From Verrucomicrobia bacterium 12-59-8 (GTDB lineage: Bacteria > Verrucomicrobiota > Verrucomicrobiae > Verrucomicrobiales > Verrucomicrobiaceae): DNA of 8,307 bases. The stretch spans positions 1-8,307 of the forward strand of contig NCCR01000189.1 of the NCBI GenBank assembly GCA_002279765.1, written 5' to 3'. The notes below the pieces were generated by a model, which saw only the letters and a program-made list of their open reading frames with translations, was not told the DNA's origin and searched no databases. Below, in pieces: positions 49 through 5,000 of the stretch (the stretch's first letter is position 1; every line of letters begins with the position of its first letter). The translations under genes were made by a program, and so were the position numbers.

Positions 49-124
49 TGGATCCTCTGGTGAGATTCGCGCTCACATAAACCTGTTTACAAGACAGGTG
101 CCTTTCTCAGTCGGCCACGGAGGA
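49..124 (-). tRNA. tRNA-Thr(TGT) with non-canonical elbow
   Basis: A 76-nt cloverleaf with encoded CCA (plus strand TGG at 49-51). The acceptor stem TCCTCCG/CAGAGGA has one C-A mismatch at the sixth pair, and the discriminator is U. The D-stem is GCC/GGC. The anticodon stem CCTGT/ACAGG is perfect, with loop CTTGTAA and anticodon TGT, which reads ACN threonine codons. The T-stem GTGAG/CTCAC is perfect, but the T-loop is CGCGAAT: position 54 is C and 55 is G, instead of U54-U55. The D-loop shows A18-G19 where G18-G19 is standard. The perfect anticodon and T-stems argue against simple decay. Confidence 0.85.
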
Positions 125-133
125 ATTTGAAAA

Positions 134-208
134 TGGTGCGGCATGTCGGTGCTGCCCCGACGCGCTCTGTTTGGAAGACAGAAATGCTTGCTGTTACATC
201 AATGCCGC
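134..208 (-). tRNA. tRNA-Gly(TCC) with non-canonical elbow
   Basis: A 75-nt cloverleaf ending in encoded CCA. The acceptor stem GCGGCAT/ATGCCGC is perfect with discriminator A (bacterial tRNA-Gly usually has U). The D-stem ATGT/GCAT includes one G-U pair, and the D-loop AACAGCAA carries A18-G19. The anticodon stem TCTGT/ACAGA is perfect, loop CTTCCAA, anticodon TCC (Gly). The T-stem GTCGG/CCGAC is perfect, and the T-loop GGCAGCA has G55-C56 and lacks the normally invariant A58. A 9-nt linker ending in a U-run separates it from tRNA-Thr. Confidence 0.85.
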
Positions 209-215
209 AATGAAA

Positions 216-290
216 TGGCCGCTGGAGTGGGTAGCGCGCCCACCTCTGCGGATCTTCAATCCGCCGCTCATCTGTCTGAGCCATCCAGCG
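216..290 (-). tRNA. tRNA-Phe(GAA) with non-canonical elbow
   Basis: A 75-nt cloverleaf in which every stem pairs perfectly: acceptor CGCTGGA/TCCAGCG, D-stem GCTC/GAGC, anticodon stem GCGGA/TCCGC and T-stem GTGGG/CCCAC. The loop TTGAAGA gives anticodon GAA (Phe). CCA is encoded and the discriminator is G, whereas bacterial tRNA-Phe normally has A73. The T-loop is CGCGCTA (G55, C56, no A58), and the D-loop AGACAGAT has A18-G19. The combination of flawless stems and broken 'invariant' loop bases is the clearest single example of the array's unusual elbow. Confidence 0.88.
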
Positions 291-302
291 TGTGTGAAAA
301 AA

Positions 303-376
303 GGGTCCCTCGGCGTGGTGACGCTCCACGGTCTTCCGGTTATCGACCGGGTGCTCTGCTGTTGAGCTACGGAGGG
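303..376 (-). tRNA. tRNA-Ile(GAT), atypical, CCA mutated to CCC
   Basis: A 74-nt cloverleaf. The acceptor stem CCCTCCG/CCGAGGG has one C-C mismatch. The D-stem GCTC/GAGC encloses AACAGCA, and the T-stem CGTGG/CCACG is perfect with T-loop AGCGTCA (G55, C56). The anticodon arm CCGG/CCGG holds loop TCGATAA, which reads as GAT (Ile) but has C at position 33 instead of the near-universal U33. The 3' end reads A-CCC, so the terminal CCA is not intact in the DNA, unlike its neighbours. It may need 3' repair, or may be partly degenerate. Confidence 0.7.
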
Positions 377-379
377 AAT

Positions 380-464
380 TGGCTTCGGCGTCAAGCGGGT
401 CAAGATTCGTCAAAAGGGTCATGACGACCTTCTTGACCTTTTGACAATGGCTTGACCCCGAAGC
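380..464 (-). ncRNA. Rod-like hairpin RNA occupying a tRNA slot
   Basis: This slot has the array's spacing and an encoded GCCA end (TGG at 380-382), but I cannot fold a D-arm or T-arm. Instead three nested inverted repeats make one long rod: 382-388 with 458-464 (7 bp), 397-404 with 451-458 (8 bp, sharing its outermost base with the outer arm), and 409-417 with 437-445 (9 bp). The 19-nt terminal loop contains the palindrome GTCATGAC. Read as a tRNA, the acceptor would be TTCGGGG/CGCCGAA with one mismatch. No anticodon can be assigned. It could be an armless or decayed tRNA, a processing signal, or an unrelated structured RNA. Confidence 0.5.
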
Positions 465-470
465 GAAAAA

Positions 471-548
471 TGGCGGAGCACCAGAGAATTGCACCTGGAA
501 CCACGGCCGTTAGAAGCGGCGTATGCAATGCTGTTACACCTTGCGGGC
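471..548 (-). tRNA. tRNA-Arg(TCT), acceptor stem largely unpaired
   Basis: The anticodon arm GCCG/CGGC with loop CTTCTAA gives TCT (Arg, AGA/AGG codons). The D-stem GTGT/GCAT encloses AACAGCATT with A18-G19. The T-stem CCAGG/TCTGG has an 8-nt loop beginning TGC, so G55-C56 is preserved. CCA is encoded. The acceptor strands GCCCGCA and TGCTCCG pair only at the three inner positions; the four outer pairs are G-G, C-C, C-C and C-T. The gene may be decaying or a recombinant of two tRNAs, or the mismatches may need editing. The specificity call rests on the anticodon alone. Confidence 0.65.
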
Positions 549-555
549 ATGAAAA

Positions 556-628
556 TGGCTCCCCAGCGTGGACTCGCACCACGACGATCGGCTTAACAGG
601 CCGACTGGCTACTTTACCTCACCGGGGA
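556..628 (-). tRNA. tRNA-Asn(GTT) with non-canonical elbow
   Basis: A 73-nt cloverleaf with acceptor TCCCCGG/CTGGGGA (one G-U), discriminator G as expected for Asn, and encoded CCA. The anticodon stem TCGGC/GCCGA is perfect with loop CTGTTAA and anticodon GTT. The T-stem CGTGG/CCACG is perfect. The T-loop TGCGAGT differs from the textbook TTCGAGT only at position 55 (U to G), isolating that change neatly. The short D-arm GGT/GCC encloses AAAGTA, again A18-G19. Confidence 0.87.
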
Positions 629-636
629 GTTTGAAA

Positions 637-711
637 TGGTGGAGCCGGACGGTAATGCTCCGTCGCCTGCTGATTGCAAAACAGCCGTGCAGCCTTCTAC
701 ACTACGGTCCC
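637..711 (-). tRNA. tRNA-Ala(TGC) with G3:U70 retained
   Basis: A 75-nt cloverleaf with acceptor GGGACCG/CGGCTCC, encoded CCA and discriminator A. The third acceptor pair is G3:U70, the established main identity element for alanyl-tRNA synthetase, which supports both the Ala call and continuing function. There is one A-C mismatch at pair 4. The anticodon arm GCTGT/TCAGC has a T-T mismatch next to the loop TTTGCAA, anticodon TGC. The T-stem GACGG/CCGTC is perfect with loop AGCATTA (G55, C56). The D-arm GTGT/GCAC encloses AGAAGGCT, with A18-G19. Confidence 0.85.
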
Positions 712-720
712 TTGGAAAAT

Positions 721-797
721 TGGCGGTCCGTGCGGGCTTTGCTCCCGCTACCCTCCGCTCGACAAGCAAGCGCTCTACTGAACTGAGCTAACGGACC
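721..797 (-). tRNA. tRNA-Asp(GTC) with non-canonical elbow
   Basis: A 77-nt cloverleaf with perfect acceptor GGTCCGT/ACGGACC, discriminator G (as expected for Asp) and encoded CCA. The D-stem GCTC/GAGC encloses AGTTCAGTA, where the usual G18-G19 is A18-G19. In the standard frame the anticodon loop is TTGTCGA, giving GTC, on a weak stem CTTGC/GCGGA with two G-U pairs and a C-A mismatch. The anticodon is therefore less certain than in neighbours. The T-stem GCGGG/CCCGC is perfect with loop AGCAAAG (G55, C56). Confidence 0.75.
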
Positions 798-804
798 TTA
801 AAAT

Positions 805-877
805 TGGACACAGGGGATGGAGTTACACCAACCAAGACAGGCTTATGAGACCCGGCAGAGCACTGGCTCTCCCTGCA
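805..877 (-). tRNA. tRNA with CAT anticodon (Met, or Ile2)
   Basis: A 73-nt cloverleaf with acceptor TGCAGGG/CCCTGTG (two wobbles), discriminator U and encoded CCA. The anticodon stem CGGGT/GCCTG (two wobbles) holds loop CTCATAA, anticodon CAT. The initiator signature of three G-C pairs beside the loop is absent, so it is an elongator Met or a lysidine-modified Ile2; sequence alone does not decide. The D-region forms a tight GAGC/GCTC stem around CAGT. The T-stem GTTGG/CCATC has one mismatch. The T-loop TGTAACT has G55 but U56, the only exception to C56 in the set. Confidence 0.72.
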
Positions 878-887
878 GTTTGAAAAA

Positions 888-974
888 TGGTGCGGCGTGA
901 CGGGAATGCTCCGTGGGGGCTCAATGAGCTTTGGAGTTACAGTCCAAGTCGCCTCTTTAACGATCTACCGCCGC
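888..974 (-). tRNA. tRNA-Tyr(GTA), long variable arm
   Basis: At 87 nt this is a class II tRNA, as expected for bacterial Tyr. The acceptor GCGGCGG/ACGCCGC pairs at six positions, discriminator A, CCA encoded. The anticodon stem TTGGA/TCCAA is perfect with loop CTGTAAC, anticodon GTA. The variable arm forms GCTC-ATT-GAGC at 919-929. The T-stem CACGG/CCGTC has one mismatch and the loop AGCATTC has G55-C56. The D-arm is poorly defined (TCG/CGA is the best stem), with AAAG in the loop. Confidence 0.82.
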
Positions 975-991
975 GTTCTTGATTTGGAAAT

Positions 992-1066
992 TGGCACGGC
1001 GGGTGGGTACTGCCCCCACATCTTCGGGTTTTGGAGGCCCGTGCATTGCTTGTCTGCCACCGCCGT
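992..1066 (-). tRNA. tRNA-Trp(CCA) with non-canonical elbow
   Basis: A 75-nt cloverleaf with perfect acceptor ACGGCGG/CCGCCGT, discriminator G (expected for Trp) and encoded CCA. The anticodon arm CGGGC/ACCCG has one C-A mismatch beside the loop CTCCAAA, anticodon CCA. The T-stem GTGGG/CCCAC is perfect with loop GGCAGTA (G55, C56). The D-stem GCA/TGC encloses a loop with A18-G19. It is the most promoter-proximal tRNA I can fold confidently in the array. Confidence 0.85.
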
Positions 1067-1084: not shown

Positions 1085-1204
1085 TCTGCCATTCAAGGAC
1101 ACGGAGACAGTCATACCACTGTACACTCTCCCAAGGTTACACCACCTGTTACCGTGCTCCGCGCCCTTGAATGGCAGATCAGCCTCGTTGTGAGGTGATC
1201 TGCC
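1085..1204 (-). ncRNA. Structured element with competing hairpins upstream of the array
   Basis: A perfect 14-bp inverted repeat (1085-1098 with 1165-1178) brackets a 66-nt interior. A second hairpin pairs 1173-1181 with 1196-1204, extended by CCTC/GAGG with one bulged base. The two share the segment at 1173-1178, so TCTGCC at 1085-1090 and TCTGCC at 1199-1204 compete for one GGCAGA. CACGG/CCGTG (1100-1104 with 1151-1155) may extend the long stem inward. It sits 5' of tRNA-Trp in the direction of transcription. I could not fold the interior as a tRNA and do not recognise an RNA family. Confidence 0.4.
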
Positions 1205-1345
1205 AAATAAAAGAACGAACACCGCTGCCACGCACGGGATGGAGTGAAGATCACCCCATCGCTGGCGTCGCACCCGCAGGTATTTCACGGCGGATGTTTC
1301 GGTGTTTATGGCACACCTCCCTGGGAAGCCGGTTCGTGATGTCAA
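1205..1345. other. Non-coding stretch with tRNA-like fragments
   Basis: No gene is supported here. On the minus strand 1238-1260 forms a 10-bp hairpin with a 3-nt loop; its single imperfect pair is G-U in minus-strand RNA but A-C in plus-strand RNA, which favours minus-strand transcription. The stem GGTGT/ACACC around loop GCCATAA (1301-1317) resembles an anticodon arm with CAT. GCGGG/CCAGC around TGCGACG (about 1262-1277) resembles a T-arm with G55. The two arms do not come with a convincing acceptor stem or a CCA end, so I do not call a tRNA. Confidence 0.3.
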
Positions 1346-1426
1346 AAATGGGCAATGAATTCCCGTATTCCTCGTCTCGATGTAGGAATATTACGTATTT
1401 GATGACTGCTTCAGTTGACATTCGTT

Positions 1427-1542
1427 AGGAGGGTGCAAACCTGTATTCAGGTCTTGCTCTGGCGTTTTCTCAACGACTCCTCCCGGAGTCAGCTTGGCTA
1501 GCCTTGCCCCGGTGTCCGTTAGCGCGGATACCGGGGTTTTTT
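1427..1542 (+). ncRNA. Possible small RNA ending at an intrinsic terminator
   Basis: Upstream of the terminator at 1507-1542 the plus strand carries hairpins ACCTG-TATT-CAGGT (1439-1452) and GACTCC-TCCC-GGAGTC (1475-1490), plus GGAGG at 1428-1432 that could instead pair with CCTCC at 1479-1483. A TTGACA hexamer lies at 1415-1420, but I see no -10 at normal spacing. No convincing ORF is present. A plus-strand transcript evidently ends here, opposite in sense to the tRNA array. Whether it begins nearby as a small RNA or further left is not visible. Confidence 0.35.
1507..1542 (+). terminator. Intrinsic terminator, plus strand
   Basis: A 12-bp stem (1507-1518 with 1525-1536) with a 6-nt loop is followed directly by six T residues (1537-1542). 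The one non-Watson-Crick pair is G-U in plus-strand RNA and C-A in minus-strand RNA, confirming the plus orientation. Confidence 0.88.
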
Positions 1543-1622
1543 CGTGCTGTGGGGAAGCGGTCAAAGGACCGCAGGTTCAATCAATGAGTTTGGAAAAGGG
1601 GTAGGTGGTTCGTTTCGCGGCC
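1543..1622. other. Spacer between two facing terminators
   Basis: It contains a 6-bp hairpin GCGGTC-AAAG-GACCGC followed by AGGTTCAATC, which resembles a conventional T-arm start, but no matching 3' stem or acceptor follows. No gene is seen. Confidence 0.3.
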
Positions 1623-4061: not shown

Positions 4062-5000
4062 ATGCCAGCCCTGACAAGTTACACTCATGCGCTCACCTCC
4101 AGTCAAGCGGCGAAGCTGCGCACTCTACTGGAGGAACGCGGCTTTGAGTTTCAAACCAAACCCTACTGCCTCTATGCCGCCGCCAAATCAAAGGTGAACA
4201 TCTGCGTCTATGAGAAAGGCCCCAAGATCGTCGTGCAGGGAAAGGAGACCGAGGAATTTATCACGAACCTGCTCGAACCCGAAGTGTTGGGGGAGGCAAA
4301 ACTCGGCTACGAAGAAGTTCATCATCCGGAGATGTTTCAGCCTCACATCGGCGTGGATGAAAGCGGCAAGGGCGACTTCTTCGGCCCACTGGTCATTGCA
4401 GGTGTTTATGTCGATGGTGATGTCACACGCAGCCTGCGCGATGTCGGGGCGGTGGACAGCAAACGCATTAGCAGCGACGCGCGCATCTATCAAATTGCCA
4501 CCGACATTCGCAGCATCCCTGGCCTCGCCTGGGAGGTGATCGCGATTCATCCCGAGCGGTACAACGAGCTATACGCCAAATTTGGCAATCTGAACCGGCT
4601 GCTAGCCTGGGGGCATGCCCGGATCATCGAAAACCTGCTTGAACGCGTCCCGGGCTGCCAGCGGGCCATCTCGGATCAGTTCGCCAATCCCGCCGTGCTG
4701 CAGCGTGCTATGCAGACCCGAGGCAGAGAAATCGAACTCGTCCAGCGCACCAAAGCAGAAAGCGACCCGGCGGTGGCCGCCGCCTCCATTCTGGCGCGCG
4801 AGGCTTTTGTGGGCTGGCTGAAGTCACAGGGCCAGAAGTTCGGCATGGAATTCCCCAAAGGAGTCTCGGAAGGTGTGAAACAAACTGCCATCAATCTCGT
4901 AGAACAGCATGGCAGCGACGTTTTACCAAGCCTGTGCAAAATGCACTTCCGGACTTCTTCTGAGGTTCTATCGCGGATAGTTTCGGATCATCCCAAATAA
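4062..5000 (+). CDS. rnhC: Ribonuclease HIII
   Basis: A cytoplasmic type 2 RNase H that cuts the RNA strand of RNA-DNA hybrids, such as R-loops and primers. At 312 residues it has the family's length. The N-terminal TBP-like substrate-binding domain spans about 10-85. The catalytic domain begins at IGVDESGKGDFFGPLVIAGV, with Asp99 and Glu100 of the active site and the GKG(D) motif diagnostic of HIII/HII. DSKRIS follows at 132-137, then Asp205 in ISDQFANP, and ESDPAVAAASILAR (233-246), whose Asp235 is the probable fourth metal ligand. The C-terminal helices carry KFGMEFPKG. The extra N-terminal domain and the DESGKGDFFGPL form separate it from RNase HII. It is the first of three plus-strand genes, 86 bp before the HU-like gene. 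Confidence 0.96.
   Translation: MPALTSYTHALTSSQAAKLRTLLEERGFEFQTKPYCLYAAAKSKVNICVYEKGPKIVVQGKETEEFITNLLEPEVLGEAKLGYEEVHHPEMFQPHIGVDESGKGDFFGPLVIAGVYVDGDVTRSLRDVGAVDSKRISSDARIYQIATDIRSIPGLAWEVIAIHPERYNELYAKFGNLNRLLAWGHARIIENLLERVPGCQRAISDQFANPAVLQRAMQTRGREIELVQRTKAESDPAVAAASILAREAFVGWLKSQGQKFGMEFPKGVSEGVKQTAINLVEQHGSDVLPSLCKMHFRTSSEVLSRIVSDHPK

Follow-up and report, generated by a model that had tools for sequence, protein, structure and literature searches.

The locus analysed here is a transfer RNA (tRNA) array at the start of an 8,307-nucleotide stretch of DNA from Verrucomicrobia bacterium 12-59-8 (contig NCCR01000189.1 of assembly GCA_002279765.1; hereafter the window). Its closest described counterparts are summarised from partial texts of the papers cited. 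The trn operon of Anabaena PCC 7120 holds 26 tRNA genes, is induced by translation stress and involves TrcR, with rtcB under the same repressor (PMC10272220). Jumbo phages carry tRNA arrays with RtcB, RlaP and sometimes TROVE (PMC7824862), the RNA-repair operon of Salmonella includes a tRNA-like RNA (PMC7790460), and RlaP, RtcB, TROVE and RNA ligase all count as families of repair proteins (PMC7790460, PMC7824862). At the tRNA elbow, where position 18 pairs with 55 and 19 with 56, pseudouridine 55 (Psi55) is described as universally conserved and the outer G19-C56 face is met by the ribosome and RNase P (PMC4810234). Unusual tertiary pairs are known from eukaryotic tRNA-Ala with R15/A48 (R, purine) and A54/A58, reported to be absent from bacteria and archaea (PMC7566577). 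Outside tRNA, the loop of the thiamine pyrophosphate aptamer fits a UGNRA consensus, and the G of such loops commonly joins with an A from outside the loop to form a composite GNRA tetraloop (PMC2258182).

We put at roughly 55% the probability that the array belongs to a second, near-complete tRNA set in which elbow pair 18:55 has switched from G:U to A:G with 19:56 kept, and which likely serves as a spare translation set at times of tRNA damage, with a predicted elbow of composite GNRA type. The first-pass annotation of the window had reported G55 in all eleven readable T-loops, C56 in ten and a purine at 57 throughout, with A18-G19 in place of G18-G19. Called from stems alone (positions 54-60; by eye for Ile, Arg and Tyr, for which the scanner gave no call), the T-loops have G55 in 11/11, C56 in 10/11 (Met has U56) and R57 in 11/11. 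A18-G19 stands in nine D-loops (Thr, Gly, Phe, Ile, Arg, Asn, Ala, Asp and Trp), with the Tyr reading uncertain and the Met D-arm compact, as that annotation had said. The state is more than chance, because it recurs gene by gene in the homologous arrays of relatives.

Coupling of tRNA positions 18 and 55

Array genes were collected with a scanner that scores stems, lengths and the bases U8, A14 and U33, gives no score to the bases at 18, 19 and 54-58, demands most stem pairs and disfavours long variable arms (score cut-offs of 34 to 43 across runs). Patterns and this stem-only scanner were used instead of covariance model R1, which gave no clean separation of the two forms. The 23 array loci gave 346 scanner matches and 297 distinct tRNAs; isolated matches, with no neighbour within 1500 bases, were excluded from the array-locus counts, except in L011 and L179. 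G55 occurs in 282 of the 297 and U55 in 15. A D-loop GG is found in every one of the 15 U55 genes and in 18 of the 282 with G55, and several of those 18 either read A-G-G or carry the GG at another place.

Counts of the 18:55 pair were made on tRNAs with 7-nucleotide D-loops, in which positions 18 and 19 cannot slide in the alignment. Among 95 such tRNAs from Verrucomicrobial arrays the pair is A:G in 81, G:G in 9, G:U in 3 and other in 2. The pooled set (n = 537; Verrucomicrobial, viral and Planctomycetota) has A:G in 315, G:U in 193, G:G in 11 (eight of them Leu genes with an odd D-loop), A:U in 1 and other pairs in 17, an odds ratio of about 5500; the pooled sequences are related and include pattern seeds, and the Fisher value is not a true probability. 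At the level of sequence, positions 18 and 55 change jointly in separate arrays, G:U giving way to A:G.

Pair 19:56 is G:C in 513 of the pooled tRNAs, A:U or U:A in 9 and other in 15, and G:C in 85 of the 95 Verrucomicrobial ones. The Pro genes of L180 and L181 show a joint change from G19 to A19 and from C56 to U56 relative to the Pro of other arrays. As read from the aligned genes, pair 19:56 is retained, in places through compensatory change, which agrees with the earlier proposal that the first contact is altered on both sides and the second kept.

Conservation of U54 and A58 had been described as lost. The bases do vary, but they covary and are not simply relaxed. Position 54:58 is mostly T:A, G:G, A:T or C:A in G55-C56 tRNAs (Verrucomicrobial, n = 265; viral, n = 388), and its mutual information in Verrucomicrobial arrays is 1.07 versus a shuffled maximum of 0.08; none of 2000 shuffles reached the observed value, in the Verrucomicrobial and viral sets alike. 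U54 is kept in 130 of the 265 Verrucomicrobial G55-C56 tRNAs, each time with A58. The first-pass proposal that the TruB and TrmA substrates are lost thus stands for U55, which is gone, whereas loss of the TrmA base is only partial because U54 survives in those 130. R57 is present in 281/282 Verrucomicrobial and at least 397/397 viral G55 loops, and is also usual in U55 loops.

Distribution beyond the Verrucomicrobiaceae

The annotation had suggested a search of genomes and viromes for G55/A18 arrays; these are present in Verrucomicrobiaceae, viral contigs and Planctomycetota, and a local Verrucomicrobial oddity is thereby ruled out. Viral numbers are lower bounds, taken from the matches listed in pattern scans. 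The 358 viral loci were drawn from six pattern scans, to which regions from two of the matched records and from five named phages were added; several loci share a contig. IMG/VR contigs are predicted viruses, the genomes are mostly drafts, and some placements may be wrong; the labels Planctomycetota and Bacillota follow L054 and L059, whose phyla were sampled.

A G55-C56 tRNA is present in at least 123 of the 358 viral loci, and at least 41 loci have four or more G55 genes. Among the matches listed, viral tRNAs with 7-nucleotide D-loops (n = 302) read A:G in 122, G:U in 166, A:U in 1, G:G in 2 and other in 11; the pattern seeds left out of this count (81) are all A:G. RtcB occurs in 5/16 G55-rich virus records. 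An HNH motif was found in 6/41 G55-rich viral loci versus 0/15 canonical-array loci and 0/205 loci without such tRNAs, among the matches listed, and five viral loci have an HNH domain confirmed by Pfam. In or beside viral A18:G55 arrays lie HNH proteins whose start is LNRxWQ-like (L334 12357-12926; L300 7459-8079; L465 1857-2432; L405 1646-2302; L373 12070-12645), like the two HNH proteins that follow RtcB in L119.

Viral contig L334 (275 kb, 31 G55 tRNAs) also has a transfer-messenger RNA gene at 8946-9300, called by ARAGORN with the tag ANAPVRLAA; the same program found most of those tRNAs. Phages J2-1 (Cys, L602 7837) and f2b1 (Phe, L342 2992) each have one A18:G55 tRNA amid canonical ones, and their records annotate no tRNA in the stretch examined. 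No G55-C56 tRNA was found in the regions read of phages Rctr197k, Tunturi_5, ScoobyDoobyDoo, Aswh_1, Psa21, Va1 and FLC9.

In the planctomycete sample the pattern matched 12/392 genomes, of which 11 (12 regions) were followed up, the G565 match being left out. Every one of the 12 regions contains at least one G55 tRNA, and 7-nucleotide D-loops there read A:G in 32, G:U in 25, C:G in 2 and G:C in 2. An A18:G55 tRNA-Thr(UGU) appears as a seeming housekeeping gene in three genomes of this sample (L661; L630 684-755; L631 4061-4134). For Bacillota, 1/398 genomes matched, and the scanner found no tRNA in that region.

Isotype signals and ordinary tRNAs

Comparison with the ordinary tRNAs of the same genome, which the annotation had also suggested, was made for array genome G004. 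Its ordinary tRNAs are canonical, 39/39 distinct genes having U55-C56 and D-loop GG (one spurious match, L140, excluded), and its 18 listed array genes are all G55 except Glu.

The arrays cover 18 amino-acid types in L124 and L177, and 14 to 18 in 14 of the 23 loci counted. Stems of the 297 array tRNAs are paired (acceptor 97%, T 99%, anticodon 96%), which is not independent evidence since the genes were selected by stem pairing. U33 is present in 268 and R37 in 285. The discriminator is the base of the ordinary isotype in 240/284 array tRNAs, as compared with a mean of 116 and a maximum of 211 when isotypes were permuted (5000 permutations), and array tRNA-Ala retains G3:U70. The change had been called a coordinated replacement and not decay; the joint 18/55 switch in separate arrays, the kept or compensated 19:56 pair, the paired stems, the isotype-matched discriminators and the canonical ordinary tRNAs of G004 bear this out. 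One of the eleven genes in the window is chimeric. Plain decay of the array is ruled out by the coupled switch and the retained isotype signals.

The planctomycete draft genome G507 has 42 tRNA matches with a single Thr(UGU), which is A18:G55, and the other tRNAs read there are canonical. The same Thr(UGU) gene adjoins Tyr in G581 and G590. Because the sole detected Thr(UGU) of G507, a draft that may miss genes, has the A18:G55 form, tRNAs of this form are probably functional in translation, and no other observation points to such use as strongly.

A TruB match was found in 14 of the 17 genomes examined, and G006, G468 and G497 are those without one. G468 and G497 are the planctomycete genomes richest in A18:G55 (L625, L626), with G55 in 25/26 detected array tRNAs. 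Loss of TruB as the cause of the switch is rejected for most genomes, given the 14/17 matches, and is possible for those three.

Locus position and neighbouring repair genes

Within Verrucomicrobiaceae the array keeps a single conserved chromosomal position and covers nearly all amino acids; its bearers are a group from soil and water. The genome closest to the window by RNase HIII (window 4062-5000) is the Prosthecobacter metagenome-assembled genome L001, at 96% identity. The array stands at the same place in L001-L005 and L007-L009, its gene order is also conserved in relatives, and in L011 only the array Trp gene was seen, close to the contig end. In a nucleotide similarity search for close relatives of the array, phages gave short tRNA matches only and plasmids none.

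The L001 array is about 3.6 kb long, including an inserted transporter-like gene (by eye), and RlaP and RtcB come next. Further relatives add RNA ligase and Ro60/TROVE, with two HNH proteins after RtcB as in L119; Pfam places RlaP, RtcB, TROVE, RNA ligase and HNH genes downstream of the array in relatives. RtcB (PF01139) adjoins the array in L119, L180 and L363, and the window itself ends inside the array, before the repair genes. RlaP was found in 10/10 close genomes and in 67/288 genomes sampled from the order, and G55 tRNAs occur in 11/20 RlaP regions taken from the wider order. Two more genomes have arrays, Brevifollis gellanilyticus NBRC 108608 (G043, array in L363) and G106; TROVE and RtcB lie next to the one in Brevifollis. 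No Y RNA family match was found within the window (Rfam, E up to 1). In L001, at about 1400-2130, two array genes seem by eye to hold long inverted-repeat inserts inside the T-loop.

Array genes and flanking features of the window

The array occupies positions 1-1066 on the minus strand and continues past the contig end. Along the window its order is His (cut), Thr, Gly, Phe, Ile, an Arg/Ser chimera, Asn, Ala, Asp, Met, Tyr and Trp, with short, T/A-rich linkers and an encoded CCA in most genes. The first-pass gene list holds with two corrections: the array starts earlier than given, and the gene read as Arg is the chimera.

The first gene is tRNA-His(GTG), truncated by the contig end at 1-40; its D-loop AACAGCA is readable and its T-loop lies outside the contig (GGCAGAA in the complete L001 homologue). 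It is followed by tRNA-Thr(TGT) at 49-124 (T-loop CGCGAAT), tRNA-Gly(TCC) at 134-208 (GGCAGCA) and tRNA-Phe(GAA) at 216-290 (CGCGCTA), each with A18-G19 in the D-loop. The tRNA-Ile(GAT) at 303-376 has D-loop AACAGCA (A18-G19), T-loop AGCGTCA and a 3' end CCC where L001 has CCA. An inverted-repeat insert recognised from the sequence (381-464) separates it from the chimeric gene at 471-549, where comparison with L001 shows a tRNA-Arg(TCT) 5' part joined to a tRNA-Ser(CGA) 3' end (A18-G19, T-loop TGCAATT); the acceptor stem is unpaired because the 3' end belongs to the next gene, Ser(CGA), in L001. Then come tRNA-Asn(GTT) at 556-628 (T-loop TGCGAGT, A18-G19), tRNA-Ala(TGC) at 637-711 (D-loop A-G-G, read as A18-G19; T-loop AGCATTA; G3:U70 retained) and tRNA-Asp(GTC) at 721-797 (A18-G19, T-loop AGCAAAG). 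The gene with anticodon CAT (Met) at 805-877 combines a compact D-arm, which lacks the usual loop, with T-loop TGTAACT. The last two are tRNA-Tyr(GTA) at 888-977, with a long variable arm and T-loop AGCATTC, and tRNA-Trp(CCA) at 992-1066 (A18-G19, T-loop GGCAGTA). The Rfam tRNA model at its gathering score found 7 of the window genes. ARAGORN found 2 of about 12, so similar arrays in bacteria may often go unannotated.

Just upstream of the array lies a long inverted-repeat hairpin on the minus strand (1085-1180; fold z-score -6.4), conserved in eight loci. Beyond it, on the plus strand and divergent from the array, alignments, BLAST and folding mark a candidate small RNA gene at 1213-1542, with its core at 1268-1321 and closed by a terminator-like hairpin at 1507-1542. 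The fold of window positions 1160-1545 has a z-score of -4.8. The candidate hardly varies among eight relatives, and its core also lies beside the arrays of L180, L181, L193, L363 and L364 and of viral contigs L395 and L466. It matches no Rfam family at gathering score, with a weak Atu_C7 match only.

Discussion

The coupled change suggests a structural solution. G55-C56-R57 together with A18 spells GCRA; A18 would stack into the T-loop and pair with G55 in the way the final A of a GNRA loop does, and a composite loop of this type would hold the L shape without pseudouridine at 55. Positions 18 and 55 would have to change together because G55 would need A18 to complete that loop, and the G19-C56 face stays in array tRNAs. 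Loss of the TruB base, and of the TrmA base in about half of the genes, would exempt array tRNAs from these two modifications or from enzymes reading them. We favour a spare set for times of tRNA damage because repair families adjoin the array and a stress-induced second set is known in Anabaena. On this proposal tRNA damage would induce the array, and the set would be transcribed, charged and used, sustaining protein synthesis when ordinary tRNAs are damaged. A broader statement is more tentative, somewhat short of even odds: that A18:G55 is a second, so far unrecognised tRNA elbow architecture of composite GNRA type. Through repeated origin or spread in phages, Verrucomicrobiota and Planctomycetota it would have given tRNA sets that can do without an elbow pseudouridine and elude enzymes reading G18/Psi55, and bacteria would keep such a set in RNA-repair loci as damage-proof spares.

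Alternatively, the switch may have been selected so that toxins, defence nucleases or host enzymes reading G18/Psi55 fail, which would make it common to phages and repair loci. The first-pass annotation had raised hiding from elbow-reading nucleases as a possibility, and a fit to dedicated synthetase partners as another. The form does sit in accessory sets, on viral contigs and in repair-linked arrays, and RtcB accompanies it in some G55-rich virus records. To our knowledge, however, nucleases of this kind act at the anticodon and not at the elbow. Anticodon cleavage is also what the partial text of PMC7790460 describes; moreover, the switch is seen in an apparent housekeeping tRNA-Thr, and many scanned viral arrays are canonical or mixed, and we consider evasion unlikely.

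It is still less probable that the array RNAs act outside translation, as decoys or RNA platforms that bind Ro60 or soak up nucleases in the manner proposed for the YrlA tRNA-like domain. TROVE/Ro60 genes adjoin the arrays, YrlA is suggested in the partial text of PMC7790460 to be a competitive inhibitor of an anticodon nuclease, and the short Leu variable loops and several altered discriminators would suit such a role. Yet nearly every amino acid is covered, anticodon loops are proper, discriminators mostly match, and A18:G55 is the only detected Thr(UGU) tRNA of one genome. Drift in a redundant set, with chance loss of U55, A18 as compensation and an array heading to decay, is similarly improbable: a second set is dispensable, and a chimera, T-loop inserts and an inserted gene occur in some arrays, but the same pair recurs with other 18:55 pairs rare (29/537), 19:56 and 54:58 covary, stems are 96-99% paired (in genes accepted by a scanner that itself demands pairing), and position and order are conserved in relatives.

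Several observations weigh against a spare translation set with a uniformly switched elbow. Discriminators do not match for Gln (16/16), Gly (13/18), His (7/11) and Phe (5/13), and 27 of the 28 Leu genes detected in arrays, by a scanner that disfavours long arms, have short variable loops, unlike ordinary Leu. Arg(TCG) of most arrays is G55-A56 without A18; it has U19, so a possible 19:56 pair (U19 with A56) persists. At least 47 viral loci mix both forms (two or more of each), and the switch is thus not tied to a whole set. Damaged members exist, namely the window chimera and the L001 genes with T-loop inserts. The link to repair genes is also incomplete: no such tRNA was found in 9/20 RlaP regions taken from the wider order, and the RlaP matches in the 288-genome order sample include neither G043 nor G106. 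RtcR (PF06956), found in 8/12 array genomes and not found in G061, always lies on contigs other than the array's. Control by RtcR from a neighbouring gene is accordingly unsupported.

No description of A18:G55 was found in the literature searched (an open-access subset); a tRNA array within repair loci may have been published already. A coupled replacement of this kind, if widespread, would mean that the L shape has a second solution, and would offer a natural double-mutant set with which to test the features that TruB, TrmH, RNase P, the ribosome and tRNA nucleases actually recognise. It would also tie tRNA repair to tRNA replacement.

Comparison with known systems

In the staphylococcal cell-wall tRNA-Gly, the elbow is altered at 18-19 and 54-55 in tRNAs set aside from translation; that case concerns one amino acid, whereas the array spans nearly all. 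Eukaryotic tRNA-Ala likewise combines coupled unusual tertiary pairs with function, but it changes other positions and 18:55 is unaltered in the partial text of PMC7566577. The predicted elbow resembles the UGNRA T-loop/composite GNRA motif of non-tRNA RNAs, with G second in the loop and an outside A completing the turn; the partial text of PMC2258182 does not describe this motif for the tRNA elbow, and the likeness here is drawn from sequence alone.

Among gene clusters, the array shares with RtcB/RtcA repair operons that carry Ro60 and Y RNAs the presence of RtcB and Ro60/TROVE genes, and differs in having a whole set of real tRNA genes together with RlaP, RNA ligase and HNH, with RtcR elsewhere. 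The tRNA arrays that phages carry together with RNA ligases and RlaP are similar in kind, and A18:G55 tRNAs are found in viral contigs here as well; the bacterial array, however, is chromosomal and fixed in place, and the partial text of PMC7824862 mentions no elbow change. Like the array, the Anabaena trn operon provides a second set of tRNAs, covering many amino acids, in addition to the complete housekeeping tRNAs, and is associated with rtcB. Unlike the array, compared by description, it lies on a megaplasmid and no elbow change is mentioned in the partial text of PMC10272220.

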